Assembly: GCA_022826345.1 (NCBI GenBank)
Contig: JAJDVB010000028.1
Location: 1 to 12,787 of the forward strand
Direction of reading: 5' to 3'
Source of the DNA: Alphaproteobacteria bacterium
GTDB lineage: Bacteria > Pseudomonadota > Alphaproteobacteria > UBA828
DNA: 12,787 bases
In this document: in pieces, positions 138 to 9,435 of the stretch
Layout of the letters: the number at the start of each line of letters is the position of its first letter
Numbering within the stretch: the stretch's first letter is position 1
Translations under genes and position numbers: made by a program
The notes under the pieces: model-generated
What the model was told of the DNA's origin: nothing
What the model saw: the letters and a program-made list of their open reading frames with translations, nothing else
Databases searched by the model: none

Positions 138-480
138 TAAATAATCCAGATATTTCTGTTTGCGAGAAAATGGGCTGAGGAGGTGTTTTTCGGACGATCG
201 CGTTGTCTCGCTCCTTACGTATCGGCTCGGTGAAAGAACAATCGGGAACCGATACACGGATGATCAGCAATGATGCGGCTAACATGAAGACCAGCGTGTG
301 CGTTGCGCGCAGCACGTCTGGCGACAACTGCGGAGGTAGCAGGATGAGCTTTATGGACACGGTACGGGTTGCACTGCGCGGAACAGGAGTGACGGTCGTG
401 AAGGTGCCGGGGATGAACGGCAAGGCGAACGAAATACCTTCGTACGAGGGCTTGACATCCTCGCCTGACCCGGGTGGTAA
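138..480. other. 343-bp stretch without a recognised gene
   Basis: This region lies between the intron 3' end and the octamer repeat, so 138 onward is the intron's 3' exon. No product is recognised. Two frames are open over its length. One is on the plus strand from a TTG at 203 through the repeat to 589. The other is on the minus strand with codons in register with 481-483, open from the repeat down through 138 and on to the window edge. The minus frame has fairly GC-rich third positions and could be a gene remnant, but no family motif is visible. A GAGGAGG ribosome-binding-like sequence at 177-183 is not followed by a useful start. The last 30 bases hold the promoter-like sequence listed separately. 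Confidence 0.45.
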
Positions 481-483
481 AAT
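452..483 (+). promoter_or_regulatory. Candidate promoter upstream of the octamer repeat and adhesin
   Basis: A perfect -35 hexamer TTGACA lies at 452-457. TAAAAT at 478-483 is preceded by TGG, giving an extended -10 (TGn) element. The spacer is 20 bases, longer than the usual 17, although an extended -10 can tolerate a poor spacer. Transcription would start near 490, inside the repeat, so repeat number would set the length of the 5' leader of the adhesin mRNA. This is an inference from consensus matches only. Confidence 0.4.
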
Positions 484-589
484 GGCCGCCGAGCCGCCGA
501 GCCGCCGAGCCGCCGAGCCGCCGAGCCGCCGAGCCGCCGAGCCGCCGAGCCGCCGAGCCGCTCCATCTGCGTTCGGGCTTCGGCCATGA
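482..589 (+). CDS. Possible leader peptide reading through the octamer repeat
   Basis: This 35-residue frame starts at ATG 482, immediately after the -10-like sequence, with a GGGTGG stretch a few bases upstream. It encodes a repeat of Ala, Glu, Pro, Ser and Arg, because three 8-bp units make one 8-residue peptide period. It ends at TGA 587-589, and that stop overlaps the ATG (586-588) of the autotransporter as ATGA, the usual geometry for translational coupling. The same frame is open further upstream to a TTG at 203. If transcription begins near 490, as the promoter call suggests, this ORF would not be fully transcribed and an upstream promoter would be needed. Its value is mainly as a possible repeat-length reader; expression is unproven. 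Confidence 0.25.
   Translation: MAAEPPSRRAAEPPSRRAAEPPSRRAAPSAFGLRP
485..561 (+). repeat. Perfect 8-bp tandem repeat, unit GCCGCCGA, about 9.6 copies
   Basis: Nine complete head-to-tail copies of GCCGCCGA run from 485 to 556, followed by a partial unit to 561, with no mismatch. The array ends 24 bases before the autotransporter start codon. The unit length is not divisible by three, so each unit gained or lost by slipped-strand mispairing shifts the frame. With the present number, the frame from ATG 482 stops at 589. Loss of one unit or gain of two would join it in frame to the adhesin. Such arrays at the 5' end of surface-protein genes are the hallmark of contingency loci in other bacteria; its role here is inferred. 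Confidence 0.95.
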
Positions 590-3500
590 GCGCGCCTGCA
601 TGGGACCGCTCCCGCCCGCCGGTCTTTCCGTCTGATTGTTCCGCTTCCGCCCGCCGGAGCCCAGCATCCGGTCAGTCCCCTTCTTCCTCCGACAGGCTCG
701 ACTGTTCCGCGCCCCGCACCGCCGCGGGCGTTCGTCATGCCGCCCGCCGCCTGCGACGTGGCCTGCTGTCGGTCCTGCTCTGCCTCCCGCTACTGACGGT
801 CTTCGCTGCCTCGGCCGCCGCGCAAGGCACCGTGACATTCACCGGCCTCGCCCAATCGGTGTCTTCGGGGTTTTACCCCGGGTCGGACGACGGGAGCGGG
901 ACCTACTCCGTGAGCGAGAGCGTCGGCTCCGTATGGGTGGAGGTCGAGTTGAGCGATGCCCCGGAGGGGGGCGATCCTCTCTCCGTCCTTGTCCGGGTGA
1001 AGAAGTCCGGCACGACAGCCACATCCGGGCAAGACTACATCAATGGCAATGGAGCGCTTGGCTGGTCTGCGCAATTCAGCGGCACCAGACGCAAGGCGCG
1101 TTTCCAGGTCCCGATCGTCGACGACGGGATCGCCGACGACAAGGAGACGCTGACGCTCGAGATCTACAATGTCAGCGCCTGTTGCGACAGCAGGTTCAGC
1201 CCGGTTGTCGGCACGGACTCCAATGGCCAGCCCTCGCACGGCTTCGGCGCCAACACCGGCGCGCTCGGGGAATACACGATCACCATCCGCGACTACACGA
1301 GCACCACCGCCGGCGACCATGTCGCGGTGTGGCTGTCGAAGGGCACCTACGAAGTGACCGAGGGCGAGGCGCTTGAGGCGACCGTCCACTTGGAGCATCC
1401 GCGGGATGCGGATACCACGATCAGCCTGACCGAGAGGTCCGGCACGGCCACGTCCGGGACCGACTACACCGCCGGCCCGTACTCCGTCACGATCCCGGCG
1501 GGCAGGACGAGCGCCGCGTTCACGTTTCAGACCACGCAGGATACGGAAGAAGAAACAGCTCCGGAGACGTTTCACCTGCGGATCGACGATAGCAGCCTGC
1601 CGGCAGGGTTCGTGACGCCGGACGGGACCGGCACGCCGGAGGAGGCCGCCGTCAACATCGTCGACGACGAATACACCTTCTGTTTCGACAAAGATAGCTA
1701 TTTGGTTTACGAGGGCGAGGAAGTGGTTGCGAGGGTCGATTTCTCGCGGCCGTTACCGCAGGATGGCCTCTTCCGGTTCCGCTACGTCAATCGGAACGCC
1801 AGCGACAGCGACTACACGCGAGTGCTCGACTACCCGAACTTTGTCCAACTCCCCGCGGGGACGGAGAGTTATACGCTCAGGCTCCCGGTCGCCGAGGACA
1901 CCCTGTACGAGATCAACGAGCTTCTCAATATCGCGGCCCTTCCGCCAGTTTTTCCGGATGGAACACCCGAATGCACAGCGGACATCATCATCAAGGATAA
2001 GAGCCGCGACGTGGATTTCCAGGCCGCCGCCTACACGGCCCATGAGGGCCGGGAGGCGGAGGTGGGGATCCGCGTGGTCGAACGGGAAACCGACGACCTC
2101 ATGGGGCTCCGCAAGCCGGTCACGCTGCACATCGCCGCAAAGGGCACGGGCAGTGCCACCGCGGGCACGGACTACGCGGCGGGCCCGTGGACCCTGACCA
2201 TCCCGGCGGGGGCCTCCAGAGGCATCCTGCGGATTCCGATCCATGCGGACGGGGCCAATGACGACGGGGAGACCATCGATCTGGAGATCAAGCGGGCGAC
2301 AGGGGGCACCGGCGTGCAGTCCTCTCGACAGCTTGGCGACCAGGCCGGCAACGTGCTGTCCGGGAGCCTCCACGTCCGGGTGAGGGACTACGGAACGCCG
2401 GCCTGGGCCGAGGGCGACGCGACGGTGACGATCCAGGGCGCGTCGGGGGCCCCGTCGGGCACGCCGATGGTGTGGATCGAGGCCGGCCCGCAGGTGTCCG
2501 AGGGCAATCCCGCCACCTTCACGCTGAAGGCCAGCCCGGCGCCGCTTGCGCCCCTGGATGTCAGCGTCCATGTCGGGGAATCCGAGGTGTCCCACGACCT
2601 GACCGATCCGTTCAGCACGATCAGGCGGCATCTGGCGAAGGAGCATCAGGGCCTGCGAGTGGCGACCATCGGCACCACCGGGAGCACCGTCTTCGAGGTA
2701 CCGACGCAGACGAACGGATCGGCCAACACCAGCACGGTCCGGGTGATACTGATGGACCCGTCCCTGATATTCAACGGCCGGAAGGCCGACTACCAGCCGG
2801 GCCGGCCGAGCGTGGCGTATGTCGGGGTGGACGCGGCCGTGACCCCGCGCGGGCAGCGGTCGGAGGCGCAGCAGGTGGCGGTGGCGCAGGCGCCGAGCGC
2901 GCCGGTCTCGAACCTCCGGGCGACGGCCGTCGACGCCACGAGCGCGAGTGTATCCTGGGACGCGGTACCCCACGCCACGGCCTACTCGCTGGATTGGGAA
3001 GGGGGCAGCGGGGGCGACTACATCGGCGGGGGCTCGAACGGCATCACCGGCACCTCGAAGACGATCCACCACAATGCCCCGGCGGCGATGACGCTGACGA
3101 TCCGGGTGGTCCCGTGGCATGTGGACGATGACGGCCAGGTGCAGGTCCATGACGCGCTCGCGGCCACGGTGACGCTCGCCGTGGGGCCGGCCGATCCGCT
3201 GACCGCCGCGCGGAACGCCTGCGTGCCGGCGGACGTCCGCTCGGCCGTGGAGGGCTATGCGGGCGAGACGCATTACGGCGCGGCGCATGTGAAACGCTGG
3301 AACAGGGCGCTTGCGGCCTTCGGCGACGACACCGGCGAGACGGCGATGACCGGCGACGAGGCGCAGGACATGATGGACAAATACACGGCGAAGCGCTGGC
3401 GGCCGATCGTCGAGGCCATTGAGTGCATCGAGGAGGCGGAGAAGGCTTCCAAAACAGCGTCCCTCCCCGAAATCGCGGTCTCCGGCGGCAGCGGCGTGAC

Positions 3501-6015
3501 GGAGGGGGCGTCGGCGTCCTTCACCGTCACGGCGACGCCCGCGCCGTCTTCGCCGCTTGCGGTGACGCTGACGGTCGGCCAGAGCGGCGATTTCGCCGCG
3601 TCGGGCGAGACCGGCACGCGGCAGGTGACCGTGCCCACGGGGGGCAGCGTGACCGTCCAGGTCGCCACGGTGGACGATGCGGTGCTGGAGGCCGACGGCT
3701 CGATGAGCGCGACCGTCGCAGCCGGGACCGGCTACCGGGTAGCGGCGCCGCCGGGGGATACGGCCTCGGTGGCGGTCGCCGATGACGACACGCCGGTGGT
3801 GAGCATCGCCGCCGGCGCCGGAGTGACGGAGGGCAGCCCGGCATCCTTCACCGTCACGGCCAGTCCCGCGCCCGCCGCGCCGCTGACAGTGGCGCTGACA
3901 GTGGGCCAGAGCGGGGACTATGCCGCCGCCGGCGAGACCGGCGCCAAGGAGGTGACCGTTCCGACCGGGGGCAGCGCGACCGTGCAGGTGGCGACGGTGA
4001 ACGACAGCGCGGACGAGCCGGACGGTTCGGTGAGCGTGACCGTCGGGGCCGGAACCGGCTACGCGGTGGCGGCGACGCCGAAGGATACGGCTTCGGTGGC
4101 GGTGGCCGACGACGATGCCGCGCCCCCGGTGCCCGAACTCACCATTGGCGATGTGACGGCCAATGAGAGCGACCAGCTGATGTGGTTCACGGTCACGCTG
4201 AGCCCGGCCTCGGACCGTGCGGTATCGGTCGACTACCGGACCCGGGAGTCGACTCCGGTGTCGGCGCGCAAGAACGATGACTTTCTGCAGATCGACTTCG
4301 GGGATGTCACCTTCAGTCCGGGCGAGACGAGCAAGCGGTTCTGGGTCTACATGTTCGACGACAACCACGACGAGGGATCGGAGACTTTCGAGGTCGTGCT
4401 GTCGCGCCCGACGGGCGGCGCGAGGATCGCCGACGGTGTGGGGGTGGGCACCATCGTGAACGACGACCCGATGCCGGCGGCGTTCCTGGCTCGCTTCGGT
4501 CGCACGGTGGCGGAGCAGGCGCTGGGCGGTATCAAGGATCGCATGGCAGCCCCCCGTACACCGGGCCTGCAGGCTACCGTGGCAGGTACTGCGGTCGGTG
4601 GCGGCGACCCGTCAGGCGGTGCTGCTGCGTCCAATCCAACGGTGGATCAGAGCGCCCTGATGCCTGGATTCGGTGGCGAAGGCGCGCAGCCGGGCCAGGC
4701 CCGGCTTGGCATGCCGTCCCTGACGGCGCGCGAGGCGCTTCTGGGCACCTCGTTTTCGCTCACCGACGAACAGGACGGCTTCGCCTTCTGGGGCCGGGCC
4801 TCGCATTCGACCTTCGATGGCCGTGAGGGGGACTTTTCGCTTGACGGCGAGGCGGTGACGGCCCTGCTGGGCACGGACTACGCGCGGGGCAGGTGGCTCA
4901 TGGGCCTGGCGCTTTTGCAAAGTGAGGGAAGCGGCGGCTACCGCGATACGGACGTCTATCCCCGCCTGGCCAGCCAGGACTGCCCGGCGGAGATGCAGGT
5001 CCTGTGCGAGGGCGCGGTGCGCGCGGGCGACGGCGACGTGGAGGCGTCGCTGACCGCGGCGCTTCCCTACGCAGCCCTCCAGGTTTCCGAGCGTCTGCAA
5101 CTTTGGGGCGTTGTCGGCTACGGCATGGGGTCCCTGACCCTGACGCCACAGACGTCGAGGGGTGCCATGACGACGGACCTTGACTGGCAGATGGTGGCGC
5201 CGGGTTTGCGGGGCGACCTGTTTGCGCCGGGCGGTGGCACGGCGTTGGCGGTGGTATCGGACGCCCTGTGGATGCGCACGGGTTCGGACAGGACGCGTGA
5301 CCTGGCGGCCTCGGAATCCGAGGTGACCCGGCTGCGGCTGGGTCTGGAGGGCAGTTGGCGTCTCAGCCTTGGAAGTGGGGCTGTGCTGATACCAAGGCTT
5401 GAGACGGGTGTTCGCCATGACGGTGGCGACGCCGAGACGGGCTTTGGCTGGGAATTGGGCGGCGGTCTGGGCTGGACGCATGTCAGGCTGGGCTTGTCGC
5501 TGCACGTCGAGGGCCGGGTGTTGCTGGCGCACGAGTCGGCGGACTTCCGGGACTGGGGTTTGTCGGGATCGCTTCGTTTCGACCCGGCGCCGGAAACGGA
5601 CCGGGGTCTGTCGGCGTCGCTGACGCCGCATTGGGGTACATCGTCAGGTGGCCTGGCGGCGCTTCTGGGCGACGGTACGGCGCCTGGCCTGTCGGGGTCC
5701 GATCTCTCTACACTGGGGAGTGGCGGTCGTCTTGACGCGGAGGTGGCGTATGGCCTGGCGATCCTGGGCGGCCGTGCCACGGGGACGCCGTACCTGGGCA
5801 TGGCGATGCTGGATGAGGCGCGCGAGGCGCGCTTGGGGTGGCGCATGACTCTGAGCGGTGCTGATCCTTCGATGAACTCAGGATCAGGAGTCGAAGGACG
5901 CAGGCGGCCGCATCAGGGAAGCGTGCAGTTGGGCATCGAGGGGACACGGCGCGAGGGGATGACAGGTGACGCCTCCCTGGAGCACGGCGTGATGCTGCGC
6001 CTGTCCGTACAGTGA
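586..6015 (+). CDS. Autotransporter-type surface protein with Calx-beta and fibronectin-III stalk
   Basis: This is a 1809-residue predicted outer-membrane adhesin. Residues 1-50 are Ser/Pro/Arg-rich. A signal peptide follows (Arg cluster 50-58, hydrophobic core 59-76, likely cleavage Ala79-Gln80). Calx-beta-like domains occupy about 81-238, 245-362, 362-475, 475-600 and 625-760. Next come a fibronectin-III-like domain (770-865), a Cys-containing helical segment (870-955), two near-identical Calx-beta-like units (961-1178) and another Calx-beta (1180-1293). A linker leads to a C-terminal beta-barrel (about 1379-1809). Asp-rich VDD/DDD turns suggest calcium binding. The barrel would anchor the protein in the outer membrane and display the stalk. 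No Shine-Dalgarno precedes ATG 586 and no other ATG, GTG or TTG start exists before the signal peptide, so start by coupling (ATGA) or by fusion to the upstream frame is plausible. The C-terminus ends in Gln, not the usual aromatic residue. The barrel assignment rests on architecture and remembered family motifs. Confidence 0.85.
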   Translation: MSAPAWDRSRPPVFPSDCSASARRSPASGQSPSSSDRLDCSAPRTAAGVRHAARRLRRGLLSVLLCLPLLTVFAASAAAQGTVTFTGLAQSVSSGFYPGSDDGSGTYSVSESVGSVWVEVELSDAPEGGDPLSVLVRVKKSGTTATSGQDYINGNGALGWSAQFSGTRRKARFQVPIVDDGIADDKETLTLEIYNVSACCDSRFSPVVGTDSNGQPSHGFGANTGALGEYTITIRDYTSTTAGDHVAVWLSKGTYEVTEGEALEATVHLEHPRDADTTISLTERSGTATSGTDYTAGPYSVTIPAGRTSAAFTFQTTQDTEEETAPETFHLRIDDSSLPAGFVTPDGTGTPEEAAVNIVDDEYTFCFDKDSYLVYEGEEVVARVDFSRPLPQDGLFRFRYVNRNASDSDYTRVLDYPNFVQLPAGTESYTLRLPVAEDTLYEINELLNIAALPPVFPDGTPECTADIIIKDKSRDVDFQAAAYTAHEGREAEVGIRVVERETDDLMGLRKPVTLHIAAKGTGSATAGTDYAAGPWTLTIPAGASRGILRIPIHADGANDDGETIDLEIKRATGGTGVQSSRQLGDQAGNVLSGSLHVRVRDYGTPAWAEGDATVTIQGASGAPSGTPMVWIEAGPQVSEGNPATFTLKASPAPLAPLDVSVHVGESEVSHDLTDPFSTIRRHLAKEHQGLRVATIGTTGSTVFEVPTQTNGSANTSTVRVILMDPSLIFNGRKADYQPGRPSVAYVGVDAAVTPRGQRSEAQQVAVAQAPSAPVSNLRATAVDATSASVSWDAVPHATAYSLDWEGGSGGDYIGGGSNGITGTSKTIHHNAPAAMTLTIRVVPWHVDDDGQVQVHDALAATVTLAVGPADPLTAARNACVPADVRSAVEGYAGETHYGAAHVKRWNRALAAFGDDTGETAMTGDEAQDMMDKYTAKRWRPIVEAIECIEEAEKASKTASLPEIAVSGGSGVTEGASASFTVTATPAPSSPLAVTLTVGQSGDFAASGETGTRQVTVPTGGSVTVQVATVDDAVLEADGSMSATVAAGTGYRVAAPPGDTASVAVADDDTPVVSIAAGAGVTEGSPASFTVTASPAPAAPLTVALTVGQSGDYAAAGETGAKEVTVPTGGSATVQVATVNDSADEPDGSVSVTVGAGTGYAVAATPKDTASVAVADDDAAPPVPELTIGDVTANESDQLMWFTVTLSPASDRAVSVDYRTRESTPVSARKNDDFLQIDFGDVTFSPGETSKRFWVYMFDDNHDEGSETFEVVLSRPTGGARIADGVGVGTIVNDDPMPAAFLARFGRTVAEQALGGIKDRMAAPRTPGLQATVAGTAVGGGDPSGGAAASNPTVDQSALMPGFGGEGAQPGQARLGMPSLTAREALLGTSFSLTDEQDGFAFWGRASHSTFDGREGDFSLDGEAVTALLGTDYARGRWLMGLALLQSEGSGGYRDTDVYPRLASQDCPAEMQVLCEGAVRAGDGDVEASLTAALPYAALQVSERLQLWGVVGYGMGSLTLTPQTSRGAMTTDLDWQMVAPGLRGDLFAPGGGTALAVVSDALWMRTGSDRTRDLAASESEVTRLRLGLEGSWRLSLGSGAVLIPRLETGVRHDGGDAETGFGWELGGGLGWTHVRLGLSLHVEGRVLLAHESADFRDWGLSGSLRFDPAPETDRGLSASLTPHWGTSSGGLAALLGDGTAPGLSGSDLSTLGSGGRLDAEVAYGLAILGGRATGTPYLGMAMLDEAREARLGWRMTLSGADPSMNSGSGVEGRRRPHQGSVQLGIEGTRREGMTGDASLEHGVMLRLSVQ
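3466..4119 (+). repeat. Two tandem 327-bp Calx-beta-like coding units
   Basis: Two direct repeats of 327 bp (3466-3792 and 3793-4119) each encode 109 residues. Both begin near a Val-Thr-Glu-Gly motif and end in a Ser-Val-Ala-Val-Ala-Asp-Asp-Asp motif. They share long nucleotide identities, such as the stretches for SFTVTA and TVPTGGS. They look like a recent in-frame duplication within the stalk and could recombine to change stalk length. Confidence 0.75.
5861..5898 (+). repeat. Dispersed-type palindromic repeat inside the barrel coding region
   Basis: Two overlapping perfect inverted repeats are present: CTGATCCT (5861-5868) with AGGATCAG (5880-5887), and TCCTTCGA (5865-5872) with TCGAAGGA (5891-5898). 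The sequence resembles the widespread short repeat built on CCTTCGAC..CTCAGGA that many proteobacterial genomes carry between genes. Here it lies in frame in the autotransporter (about residues 1759-1771) without breaking the frame. Only one copy is seen in this window, so its dispersal is inferred from resemblance. Confidence 0.6.
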
Positions 6016-6072: not shown

Positions 6073-8607
6073 TCAGGGTGTGTTGCCGTCCCAGTCCTCG
6101 ATGGTGGCATCCGCGCCGGCGTCCAGGAGTTGTTGTCTCACGCCTTCGGCTCCCGTAGAAGTTGCGTAATGCAGTGGCGTCTTCCCCTGAACGTTCTGCA
6201 CGTCTGTCTCCGCCCCCGCCTCCAGCAGGATGGCGGTCATACTGGCGTTTGCCGTCAAAGCGGCATAATGCAGCGGCGTTTCGCCCATGGCGTTTCGCGC
6301 TTCGGTGGAAGCGCCCTCTACCAGCAGAAATCTCGCCACGGCCGGCCGATTCGCGAGCACGGCGGTGTGCAAAGGGGTATTGGCGATGAGGTTGCTGCGC
6401 GTCTCCACGGAGGCACCTTGGTCCAGCAGGGCCTCAATCAGAGCGGGGTCATCCGAATCGGCAACGGCCCGGTGGAAGTCGGCATTCCTGTTGAATGCCT
6501 CCAGGCCATTGAGCGCCTTTGCCACGTCTGCATACCCCTCGTCCAGCGCCAGTTGCCGCGGTGTTTTGCCGCTGTTGTTCGGGAAGCTTGATTCTCTGAC
6601 CGGCGGATTCTTCGGGTCGATCTGTGCGGCGCCTCCCCTGTCCAGGACGTCCGGCCAGTAGGCCACCAGCAGTTCGACCATATCCCGGTCACCCGCCTCG
6701 GCGGCGTAATGCAGCGCGGTATCGCCATGGAGGCTCTGGTGGGCCACGAGGGTCGCGTCACCATAATCCTGATAGGCCAGCAGCAATTCGGCCGCTGCCA
6801 GATCACCTCGGACGGTAGCGTAATGCAGCGCGCTCCAGTCGTAGGCGAACCCTTGGTAGACGCCCTTTGTCGCGTCTGCCCCGGCCACCAGCAGAGAATG
6901 GAGGATTTTGAGGTTGACGTTGGTCTGCATGACGGCAAGATGAAGTGCCGGGAGGTTGTCGCCGATTTTCACATTCACGTCTGCGCCCAAGCGAATCTGA
7001 CGCTTGATCTCGGCCAGGTCGCCGGCCTTGATGGCCGCCCAGAGTTTATCCGGCGGATGTGGTACGTAGTCGCCGAGCAGCGGAACGATGTCCCTGTGTC
7101 CCCACTCGAGTGCCAACTGTTGCGCGGTCCAGCCGCCTGTGGTCTTGGCATCCGTATCGGCGCCGGCATCCAGCAGAGCCTTGACAATCTCAATATGGCC
7201 GATCCGGGCAGCGTTGTGCAACGGGGTATGATGCTGCGCGCCTTTGGCATTCACGTCTGCACCGCCACTGAGCAGCAGCGGGACAACGCGAGCTCGGCCA
7301 CTCAATGCGGCCAGGTGCAGCGCGGTTGAGCCTATGGAATTCGTAGCATTCACATTTGCGCCGCCCTTCAGCAGCGCCGAGACAGCCGCTGGGCGATCCG
7401 TGGAGGCGGCCAACATCAGCGGTGTCTGGCCGTCGCCATCTCGCGCATTCACATCCGCGCCATTACGGATCAGGCGTCCGATCAAGGTCGCATCGCTATT
7501 CCTGACGGCATCCCAGAGTCTCTTAGGCAACGCCTGCGCGAAGGCAAGAAGGTGGGCGGCGAGGCTCGCGTGGCCTTCCTGATGCGCGAGTTGTTGTGGG
7601 GTCTTGTTGTCGCTGTCCACGGCATGCACGTTCGCTCCGTTATTTAGTAGGGCCGTGACGATGGCGGTGTGGCCTTTCTCGACAGCCCGATGCAGGGAAG
7701 TCTTGCCATCGTTGTCTGCGGTATGGACATTCGACCCGTTATCCAGCAGGGCCGTGACGATGGCGGCGTGGCCTTTCTCGATAGCCCGATGCAGGGGAGT
7801 CTTGCCGTCGCTGTCCGTGATACTCAAGTCGGCACCACGCCTCAACAGTAAATGGACGGTGTCGAGTTGGTTGTATCCGGCGGCGACATGCAGCGCGGTG
7901 AGTCCCCTTATGAAGTTGCTTCTGGGGCCGGCTTGGATATTTACGTCGACGCCGTTCAGAGTCAGTCGCAAGAGCTTGTTCGTGTCGCCCGAGCCAGCGG
8001 CCGTTAGGAACATGCTGTCCATGAAGTTCAAGAATGCGGACAGGGCAGCGAGGCCCTTGGCGTTGGTTTTGCTTTGTCCGTACTGGAGAGGTGTCTGGCC
8101 GGCGTTGTTTTTCGCATGAATGCTCGACCCGATTTCCAGCAGAACCCTGACCGTGTCGCCGTCAGATACCACGGCCAGATGCAAGGGCGTTCTGCCTTGG
8201 GCATCCTTTACCAGATAAGTGAACACTCCTGAACCGGCCTTGAGGATGGCCGTGGCAATCGCGGCGTGACCTTGCTTGGCAGCCTCATGCAGTGGGGTCG
8301 CACCATCAGCGCTCTTGATTGAGGCCCATGTCCCTGCGCTCAGCAGGAAATTGGTCATGGCGAGGGAACCCTGATAGGCAGCAATGTGCAGTGCCGTGAC
8401 CCCGGTTTTGAAAAACCCTGATGGCGCTTGCGCATTGACGTCCATGCCGTTCGCCACCATGTTCTTGACCGCGTCCAAGTTACCCGCGAAAACGTATCCC
8501 AGGAATTCCGTGACTTTAGCGTTATCCGGTTGCTGCGCGCTTGCTCCCACGACACAACCCAAAAGCACGAAACCAACCGTGATACAGCCCATGATCTTGC
8601 GTCTCAT
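6073..8607 (-). CDS. Exported ankyrin-repeat protein
   Basis: This 844-residue protein is made almost wholly of ankyrin repeats, helix-turn-helix units that mediate protein-protein contacts. I chose ATG 8607 because GAGGAG lies 9-14 bases upstream and a signal peptide follows at once (Arg2-Arg3-Lys4, hydrophobic core, likely cut at Ala-Ser-Ala/Gln25). A TTG at 8664 would add 19 residues before the signal. About twenty repeats with the TPLH..A and G.ADVN signatures follow. They are interrupted by non-canonical linkers, two of which (LWDAVRNSD and LWAAIKAGD) begin similar super-repeats. The mature protein would be periplasmic or secreted; an LLGC sequence in the signal region makes a lipoprotein possible but less likely. 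The C-terminus stops abruptly at Asn-Thr-Pro, where a new repeat would begin. It converges on the autotransporter gene with a 57-bp gap. Its binding partner cannot be read from sequence. Confidence 0.9.
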   Translation of the reverse strand: MRRKIMGCITVGFVLLGCVVGASAQQPDNAKVTEFLGYVFAGNLDAVKNMVANGMDVNAQAPSGFFKTGVTALHIAAYQGSLAMTNFLLSAGTWASIKSADGATPLHEAAKQGHAAIATAILKAGSGVFTYLVKDAQGRTPLHLAVVSDGDTVRVLLEIGSSIHAKNNAGQTPLQYGQSKTNAKGLAALSAFLNFMDSMFLTAAGSGDTNKLLRLTLNGVDVNIQAGPRSNFIRGLTALHVAAGYNQLDTVHLLLRRGADLSITDSDGKTPLHRAIEKGHAAIVTALLDNGSNVHTADNDGKTSLHRAVEKGHTAIVTALLNNGANVHAVDSDNKTPQQLAHQEGHASLAAHLLAFAQALPKRLWDAVRNSDATLIGRLIRNGADVNARDGDGQTPLMLAASTDRPAAVSALLKGGANVNATNSIGSTALHLAALSGRARVVPLLLSGGADVNAKGAQHHTPLHNAARIGHIEIVKALLDAGADTDAKTTGGWTAQQLALEWGHRDIVPLLGDYVPHPPDKLWAAIKAGDLAEIKRQIRLGADVNVKIGDNLPALHLAVMQTNVNLKILHSLLVAGADATKGVYQGFAYDWSALHYATVRGDLAAAELLLAYQDYGDATLVAHQSLHGDTALHYAAEAGDRDMVELLVAYWPDVLDRGGAAQIDPKNPPVRESSFPNNSGKTPRQLALDEGYADVAKALNGLEAFNRNADFHRAVADSDDPALIEALLDQGASVETRSNLIANTPLHTAVLANRPAVARFLLVEGASTEARNAMGETPLHYAALTANASMTAILLEAGAETDVQNVQGKTPLHYATSTGAEGVRQQLLDAGADATIEDWDGNTP
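7603..7800 (-). repeat. Two near-identical 99-bp ankyrin coding units
   Basis: Positions 7603-7701 and 7702-7800 are tandem 99-bp units, each encoding one 33-residue ankyrin repeat (GKT..LHRA.EKGH..IVTALL). The nucleotide identity is clearly higher than between other repeats of this gene, pointing to a recent duplication. The third unit (from 7801) diverges after its first few bases. Confidence 0.75.
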
Positions 8608-8760
8608 GCCCTCGTCTCCTCGTCCAAAAATCACTGCGTTGGCTTTCTTTGGTTGTTTAGTCAACTAATAGATTCCTGAGTTTCCCTGTTCTTTCAGCGG
8701 GGAGTAGGCTTACAATTCTTATCTGTTCATGCGTAAGGGGTTACGCTGTTTTTCGACGAT
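8608..8760. promoter_or_regulatory. Divergent intergenic region (ankyrin gene / sigma-factor gene)
   Basis: This 153-bp spacer must hold the start signals for both flanking genes. On the plus strand a TACAAT (8710-8715) resembles a -10 box, but its -35 partner is weak. On the minus strand no convincing sigma-70 pair is seen. A GGGAAAC (around 8680-8690, minus strand) recalls ECF -35 elements, without a clear -10. The only firm element is the ribosome-binding GAGGAG for the ankyrin gene. Confidence 0.35.
8731..8753 (+). terminator. Terminator-like hairpin in the sigma-factor leader
   Basis: A perfect 6-bp stem, GCGTAA (8731-8736) with TTACGC (8741-8746), closes a GGGG loop. It is followed two bases later by five T residues (8749-8753). 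In the plus direction no gene upstream needs terminating, because the ankyrin gene is on the other strand. The hairpin would therefore sit in the leader of the sigma-factor transcript and might act as an attenuator or mask the ribosome-binding region. The stem is short and the function is inferred. Confidence 0.4.
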
Positions 8761-9435
8761 TTGTGTGACGCTTTCCCGTCCCCAGGGAATTACTTCCAGA
8801 CAGGCTGGTTGCCAGTGAAGAGCGATCTTGATGTGCCAGCCCTGATCCGGGAAGGGCAACGACTTCTGAGAGAAGGTGACGAAGAAGGGGCTCGCGACAG
8901 GTTTCTTGAGGCCGGACAAAGGCTCTATGACCAGCACAGCGGGAAGATGCTGGCGCAGTGTGCCTGGAGATGGGGTGACGCAGCGAGGGACTTGGTACAA
9001 GAGGTCTTTCAGCTGCTGTGGCAGAAGATGCCCGGGCTAGAACACCCCGAAGGCGTGGAAGGCTGGCTGTACGGTGTCCGCGACAACAAGATGCTGCAAA
9101 ATGGCCGTAATGCCGGGAGGAGGAAGCTGATCCTGGAAGAGAAGCGCCGGCCCATTGCAGAAAGCGCGCACTGCGCCCCGACAGAGTCTCCGGAGAAGAT
9201 TGAATTATCGAGGGAAGGAGAATGTGAGCATCGGAATATCATGAATCGACTTCCCCATGCCTTGGAGCATCTTGACCCGGCCGAAGTCACGCTGCTTCGA
9301 ATGCGCTTCTACTTGGGTCTTGGTTTCTCTGATATCGGAATTGCTCTGGGGGTGAGTGAGGCGACGGCTCGCCGGCGTCTGGGAAATGTACTCAAGCGTC
9401 TCAATAACGATCTGCGAAAGCATGGGAGGATATGA
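8761..9435 (+). CDS. ECF-type sigma-70 family RNA polymerase sigma factor
   Basis: The protein would direct RNA polymerase core to a small stress or envelope regulon. It has up to 224 residues. An N-terminal region (25-60) rich in charged residues leads to sigma region 2 (about 62-120), with the core-binding helix DLVQEVFQLLW (77-87). A variable linker follows, then region 4 (163-216) with its helix-turn-helix (FSDIGIALGVSEATARRRL, 189-207). The start is uncertain: 8761 is TTG with no Shine-Dalgarno. In-frame alternatives are TTG 8809, GTG 8815 and GTG 8833, the last with GAAGAG ten bases upstream. The first 18-24 residues look untypical, so a later start is likely. A short acidic ORF follows with a 4-base overlap. 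No standard transmembrane anti-sigma gene lies next to it. A hairpin upstream may control expression. The family call is firm; the subgroup is not determined. Confidence 0.85.
   Translation: MCDAFPSPGNYFQTGWLPVKSDLDVPALIREGQRLLREGDEEGARDRFLEAGQRLYDQHSGKMLAQCAWRWGDAARDLVQEVFQLLWQKMPGLEHPEGVEGWLYGVRDNKMLQNGRNAGRRKLILEEKRRPIAESAHCAPTESPEKIELSREGECEHRNIMNRLPHALEHLDPAEVTLLRMRFYLGLGFSDIGIALGVSEATARRRLGNVLKRLNNDLRKHGRI

Follow-up and report, generated by a model that had tools for sequence, protein, structure and literature searches.

The 12,787-nucleotide (nt) stretch analysed here, referred to throughout as the window, comprises positions 1 to 12,787 of contig JAJDVB010000028.1 of an alphaproteobacterial genome assembly (GCA_022826345.1, UBA828), and the element in question is a tandem array of the octamer GCCGCCGA lying between a small upstream open reading frame (ORF) and the gene for a large surface protein. 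The array occupies positions 485-561 of the forward strand with 9.6 copies at 100% match, the perfect repeat that a preceding sequence-only reading of this DNA had described, and it contains no stop codon in any sense frame. A pair of adjoining units is encountered 8 times in the window and never in 200 dinucleotide shuffles, and the array is therefore real and beyond chance. No match to the octamer was obtained in a scan of IMG/VR, nor any in phage records. A spacer (562-585) leads from the array to the ATG at 586, which opens a forward-strand ORF of 1809 amino acids (aa; 586-6015). The start reads ATGA, and no Shine-Dalgarno sequence is seen before it. The first 80 aa (586-825) form a leader and consist of a Ser/Pro/Arg-rich stretch followed by a signal-peptide-like core, recognised by eye, that ends in ...AAAQ. 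The body of the protein matches Calx-beta and LapA-like repeats, and its C-terminus weakly resembles an autotransporter barrel. The label of autotransporter given by the sequence-only reading finds backing in these domain matches and in a weak hit to TIGR01414 (E 3e-4, 19.9 bits against a cut-off of 16), which emerges only from a separate scan of the C-terminal 520 aa; no Pfam barrel was found in the protein, and the same 520 aa gave no PDB sequence match at E 1. The gene also contains a 327-bp tandem duplication (3492-4115, 79% matches).

Upstream, an 81-aa ORF on the forward strand (344-589) encodes a 47-aa conserved segment followed by array-encoded AAEPPSRR repeats, and its TGA stop (587-589) overlaps the ATG of the surface protein. 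A Shine-Dalgarno sequence, GGAGG (332-336), stands 7 nt ahead of ATG 344, and CGGAGG is also found in the homologous loci L204 and L208. The sequence-only reading had let this frame begin at ATG 482; its course through the array to the stop at 589, over ATG 586 of the 1809-aa ORF, was recovered, and the accompanying arithmetic is correct, in that the loss of one unit or the gain of two restores the frame. ATG 482 is nevertheless probably not the start, because it overlaps a -10-like box and because a good Shine-Dalgarno sequence belongs to ATG 344; it was set aside, and ATG 344 is the likely start of the upstream frame as judged from these signals. The box in question is TAAAAT (478-483), 1 nt ahead of the array and separated by a 20-nt spacer from a -35-like TTGACA (452-457) that is read as Leu-Thr in the upstream ORF, both on the forward strand. 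The promoter-like sequence of the earlier description was thus found, with a corrected placement: its hexamers lie inside the upstream ORF and not ahead of it.

Taken with the relatives described below, this layout makes it probable that the window holds a contingency locus in which array copy number acts as a frame-type switch. Translation would start at ATG 344 and proceed through the array, and slipped-strand mispairing, which we infer to be the mutational cause, would alter the copy number and hence the frame occupied by ribosomes as they exit the array. One of the three phases would place the upstream peptide, the array peptide and the leader, signal peptide and surface protein in a single ORF (on). 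In the phase present in the window, which is out of frame, the upstream frame ends in ATGA with its stop over ATG 586, so that the protein might be made by termination-reinitiation only (low or coupled). The remaining phase would bring ribosomes to a stop deeper within the gene (off). The hexamers adjoining the array probably begin a second transcript inside it. Such on/off expression and reinitiation, and any role in interaction with a host, are put forward here as what the arrangement would predict. The frame-type class of simple sequence repeat locus has a perfect repeat whose unit is not a multiple of three near the 5' end of a surface gene, and this is what the window contains.

Relatives were gathered first through the surface protein, for which 696 homologues with E <=1e-10 were obtained among 7988 scored; in six of the 120 homologues listed (P0002, P0017, P0033, P0034, P0043 and P0068) the N-terminus is itself encoded across an octamer array. 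From GTDB species genomes 387 relatives were obtained, the best 80 of which correspond to 78 distinct loci, all labelled as metagenome-assembled genomes (MAGs) except L062, from Candidatus Synechococcus spongiarum SH4. An alignment of leaders was then searched in 39 and in a further 14 of the genomes behind the loci, with matches in 23 and 4 genomes, respectively, and matches of the first search that lacked a locus were fetched as additional loci. After removal of duplicates, 63 arrays were found, of which 5 were dropped by hand as situated elsewhere (the 6-mers of L021, L039 and L040, the 7-mer of L071 and the 10-mer of L095); the three 6-mer arrays lie away from sites of the kind studied, and one is situated within a long open frame. 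The 58 arrays kept, mostly ahead of long ORFs with a signal-peptide-like leader, comprise 37 8-mers, 10 7-mers and 11 5-mers in 22 distinct units, L054 being counted twice (an 8-mer and a 7-mer block) and the 19-nt repeat of L197 falling under the array threshold. No unit is a multiple of three, an absence with a probability of about 1e-4 if units are independent. The converse approach, from leader to array, was taken in the first 39 genomes, where 58 rows resolve into 57 leader places (the G027:C40 rows being one place) and periods of 1 to 15 were tested. An array is nearby at 39 of these places, a weak repeat at 4 (a 5-mer repeated 3.8 times, an 8-mer repeated 2.2 times where its contig ends, and poly-C runs of 16 and 10) and none at 14; at two of the latter the array was either lost to the end of the fetched stretch (G001:C61, whose other copy, L208, has 1.9 units) or lies further up (L128). 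The repeat periods at the 43 places with any repeat are 8, 5, 7 and 1 only. The two poly-C runs (C16 in L085, C10 in L112) replace the longer-unit array at their leader genes; poly-C is also present in the flank of L120, which belongs to the L085 genome.

GC-rich repeats are prone to slippage, and the arrays might on that account be neutral slippage products devoid of function. Their distribution renders this very improbable. In 400 kb from four genomes, on contigs picked for leader sites or matches and hence non-random, 2 arrays were found, both at known sites, and none away from them. The trimer (GCCGCCGA)3 is present in 9 of the 39 carrier genomes, at 11 sites, and is missing from the 384 other genomes of a class sample, in which G001 is the sole match; two carrier genomes in that sample, G007 and G032, are without the unit. 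The 22 distinct units, moreover, all avoid multiples of three, and many of them keep a constant position with respect to TTGACA/TATAAT. On the same counts (2 arrays in that 400 kb, 11 sites in 39 genomes), dispersed repeats of the STRR or HIP type were rejected.

The fixed placement of the arrays was examined at the 44 for which upstream sequence exists, 38 of which have TTGAC within 60 nt. A -35-like hexamer (27 TTGAC, 1 TTGCCA) combined with TATAAT at no more than one mismatch was found at 28, with spacers of 20 nt in 17, 23 nt in 4, 26 nt in 1 and other lengths in 6. In 24 of these, 0-5 nt separate the -10-like box from the array; in 2 the box and the array overlap by 2 nt, and in 2 the distance is 17-22 nt, so that the pair adjoins 26 of the 44 arrays. 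The weight of the pair in the window comes from these relatives, because 30 of 200 window shuffles also contain such a site when two mismatches are allowed. A pattern search of the 39 genomes returned TTGACA-N20-TATAAT at 13 sites and TTGACA-N20-TACAAT at 12, and none of the reversed TTGACA-N20 patterns. An array follows directly at 16 of these 25 sites, and 1.9 units follow at one more (L208); the 9 sites counted as lacking an array include that short one and L199, where the sequence ends 47 nt past the motif. Four arrays, the 7-mer of L191 and the 8-mers of L192, L200 and L203, were discovered via the motif alone. The hexamers look selected as DNA, because the codons they impose are rare in the window gene (Leu TTG 8.9%, Thr ACA 8.9%, Ile ATA 6.5%). 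At 17 of the 44 array sites, the window included, a near-consensus pair with a 20-nt rather than a 17-nt spacer lies inside an apparently translated ORF.

A promoter directly 5' of the repeat characterises hmw-type loci and is matched here at the level of sequence, and the arrays could work as promoter-proximal rheostats, with transcription starting inside the array, repeat number in the 5' untranslated region (5'UTR) grading the level of mRNA or protein, and frame irrelevant. The recurrent pair and its abutment on the array, the rarity of the N20 motif with arrays behind most of its occurrences, and the rare codons of the hexamers all favour this alternative, as does the -10 box of promoter P2 of hmw1A, which overlaps the first repeat, with the repeats in the 5'UTR, according to PMC8262952. 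Units that are never a multiple of three argue in the opposite direction, as does an upstream frame that is kept open and that is preserved by spacers of 20, 23 and 26 nt (22 of the 28). A 20-nt spacer is also poor for sigma-70, which we count against the rheostat.

The starts available downstream of the array bear on both explanations. At 50 sites with a long downstream frame, the first in-frame ATG or GTG was sought within 60 nt after the array, a rule that picks a GTG before a likelier ATG at L030, L054 and L109 and an ATG inside the array at L123. Thirty-one sites, including the window, have such a start, as a rheostat would allow; only 2 of the 31 starts are accompanied by a Shine-Dalgarno-like sequence, and 27 overlap a TGA, as in the window, so that coupling through [AG]TGA seems possible at most of them. 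No in-frame ATG or GTG was found within that distance at the other 19 (L010, L009, L083, L102 and L106 among them), and there a start before the array seems needed because none follows soon after it, which counts against the rheostat. Units that are not multiples of three, missing post-array starts and an open upstream frame together favour frame control on sequence grounds, and we regard a rheostat in which frame is irrelevant as an unlikely but not negligible account. The relation of upstream to downstream frame was classified at 41 sites, of which 7 are in frame, 20 out of frame by +1 and 14 by +2 (the states of L094 and L119, whose duplicate identifiers are L178 and L196, being taken from a separate classification), and thus all three frame states are represented.

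Several features suggest that the upstream ORF is translated. The frame reading TTGACA as Leu-Thr is free of stops over 120 nt upstream at 33 of 38 sites, against 13.8 expected, a count that includes homologues and not only independent sites; the other two frames are stop-free at 7 and 20 of the 38. The ratio of non-synonymous to synonymous differences (pN/pS) was computed for the nine pairs that can be formed within three trios of loci, and lies between 0.24 and 0.83 in 8 of these pairs, whereas the +1 frame exceeds 1 in all nine. We take these as moderate signs of purifying selection, and translation of the upstream ORF is moderately supported on such grounds. Among database proteins, P0121-P0123 carry the window's upstream peptide as predicted small stand-alone proteins with differing array lengths (P0124 is the upstream ORF of L208 and no additional locus), and P0068 joins the window's upstream peptide, octamer and leader in one continuous ORF, a natural in-frame version of the locus. 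P0123 and the surface protein P0011 lie on one 2,831,272-bp contig, which would fit a single out-of-frame locus, the shared contig being all that links them. Hypothetical proteins of Burkholderia pseudomallei (P0131, P0132, P0134, P0135 and P0137) were left uncounted; their alignments span 35-53% of the query, and in that of P0131, the correspondence is confined to the repeat.

Copy number and unit differ between homologous loci. All of these comparisons are between genomes or paralogues, with one genome per species. Between the -10-like box and the ATG, L208 is shorter than the window by exactly 64 nt (8 units); L143 and L144, which share 97.4% identity across the 1436 bp running onward from the array, carry 4.4 and 9.5 units; and L119 and L197, which share 90% identity across the 1038 bp leading to the array, carry an 8-mer repeated 9.8 times and a 5-mer repeated 3.8 times, respectively. 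In L054 an 8-mer block gives way to a 7-mer block, each unit differing by a single base. The upstream peptides of L011 and P0130 were found by eye to be identical letter for letter, with more array-encoded residues in P0130, a comparison of peptides only. In-frame and out-of-frame alleles set by copy number thus occur among homologous loci of different genomes. Twelve of the 58 arrays lie at contig edges, as expected, indirectly, if length varies or the repeat is shared.

Among the same loci, L143 is a mosaic that is 91% identical to L119 upstream (814 bp) and 97.4% identical to L144 downstream (1436 bp), with the switch at the array, and the sequences of these three loci suggest recombination there. 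The array might then be mainly a recombination joint through which upstream segments and leader or passenger modules are swapped, its copy number being incidental, and the similar leaders found behind different upstream ORFs agree with this. We nonetheless consider it most unlikely as the main role, since it leaves unexplained the non-triplet units, the open upstream frame and the change in copy number at otherwise similar loci; a single clear mosaic was seen, and such a joint would be compatible with switching. The coupling of upstream frame and surface protein through copy number, as proposed from the window alone, is supported by the 58 like arrays, the absence of units divisible by three, the three frame states, the natural in-frame homologue and the differences in copy number and unit among homologous loci, while the upstream start and the place of the promoter had to be revised and the setting became one of MAGs from symbionts, apparently of sponges.

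Against a frame-type switch stand a number of observations. No array lies near 12 of the 57 leader places, one of which (L124) has only 4 nt of upstream DNA, 10 of the 12 having a leader E-value above 1e-8; in the second set of 14 genomes, an array accompanies only 1 of 5 leader matches. Sites in frame (7 of 41) are fewer than the expected third (p 0.03), the downstream frames of L118, L128, L140, L143, L144 and L217 are uncertain, and copy numbers derive from MAG consensus sequences. The stretch searched contains 24 ATGs preceded by a Shine-Dalgarno-like sequence, and 16 of them fall in the upstream frame, a ribosome-site signal that is weak alone because that frame contains 85 of all 150 ATGs counted. 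The pN/pS of the L204/L208 pair is 1.07, and the +2 frame is below 1 in 6 of the nine pairs. Pooled over one pair per group, the Fisher p value depends on the pairs chosen, with a median of 0.034 and extremes of 8e-4 and 0.22; 15 of the 27 combinations fall below 0.05. Differences by codon position are non-significant both for the upstream ORF (37/49/57, p 0.12) and for the leader (69/61/81, p 0.24). The fused form, furthermore, would put the signal-peptide core more than 100 residues from the N-terminus, which is unusual for Sec export, and this internal signal peptide is a real difficulty for the fused product. Finally, the near-consensus pair sits inside the upstream ORF, too far down to transcribe its start, and no promoter was seen ahead of that ORF at 29 of 33 sites in a loose test over at most 130 nt; the embedded pair and the lack of a visible upstream promoter speak for an hmw-like second layer of control or for the rheostat.

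Around the switch, the window contains on its forward strand the 3' end of a group II intron (domains V-VI; 60-137; RF00029, 62 bits), which ends about 200 nt before ATG 344 and thus marks an intron insertion upstream of the switch. No link between the intron and the origin of the array was seen, and this origin was rejected; the plasmid matches listed (20 of 22 records) cover the intron end only. Convergent with the surface gene, an 863-aa ankyrin-repeat protein recognised by its domain match is encoded on the reverse strand (6073-8664), its gene containing a 99-bp repeat (7610-7815); one of the titles cited by PMC8163846 ties ankyrin proteins of sponge symbionts to phagocytosis. A protein resembling the Sigma-70 family follows on the forward strand (8761-9435), with region 4 above and region 2 below the domain cut-off.

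Many of the carrier MAGs apparently come from marine sponges. Titles naming Candidatus Synechococcus spongiarum, and genome-name prefixes (CAR, COS, IRC, RHO, APA) that fit sponge species in PMC8163846, are the basis for this origin, which is presumed for the other names; looking up the SB bin names gave no result. More broadly, and as a tentative proposal that we hold at somewhat less than even chances, the locus may represent a modular phase-variation cassette common to sponge symbionts filed under several phyla, in which an opa-like switch and an hmw-like, promoter-abutting repeat change the sets of eukaryote-like surface proteins that each symbiont population shows to its host. Its parts would be the Shine-Dalgarno sequence, the upstream ORF, the embedded promoter with its 20-nt spacer, a microsatellite of freely changing, non-triplet unit, and the leader; sharing across phyla is unproven, as it relies on MAG bins as filed. 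Phase variation driven by slippage is best documented in a few vertebrate pathogens with small genomes. If the proposal is true, a mechanism for adhesive or antigenic heterogeneity would operate in an ancient animal symbiosis, in GC-rich uncultured, apparently sponge-associated symbionts and on proteins of Calx-beta and leucine-rich repeat type, and the recurring promoter-array geometry with its freely changing unit would constitute a natural experiment on the origin and retention of repeats.

Among known systems, the tetranucleotide contingency genes of Haemophilus influenzae of the lic and hgp type carry their repeat in the 5' part of the ORF and switch by frame; they differ from the window array in unit length, composition and host group. 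In Neisseria opa genes, PMC3745409 describes a (CTCTT)n repeat in the leader-peptide coding region, not a multiple of three, whose copy number restores or disrupts the frame of a family of outer-membrane proteins. The window shares with opa a non-triplet repeat and a proposed frame-type switch before a surface protein; unlike in opa, unit sequence and length vary by locus, the array ends some 65 codons ahead of the signal-peptide core, and a distinct upstream ORF, which contains a promoter-like pair, leads into the array. The hmw1A and hmw2A loci of H. influenzae, as described in PMC8262952 and PMC2651432, have an (ATCTTTC)n repeat behind a promoter whose -10 box overlaps the first repeat, with a large adhesin downstream; the repeats lie in the 5'UTR, more copies lower expression, and units vary by strain (7- and 8-mers before hmw1A and hmw2A, a 9-mer before hmw2C). 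As in hmw, the window repeat adjoins a promoter-like pair and precedes a large surface protein, whereas here an upstream ORF runs through the repeats, and the units are GC-rich and avoid multiples of three. No description of this array family, or of slippage, phase variation or simple sequence repeats in sponge or uncultured symbionts, was found in the open-access literature searched under such terms.

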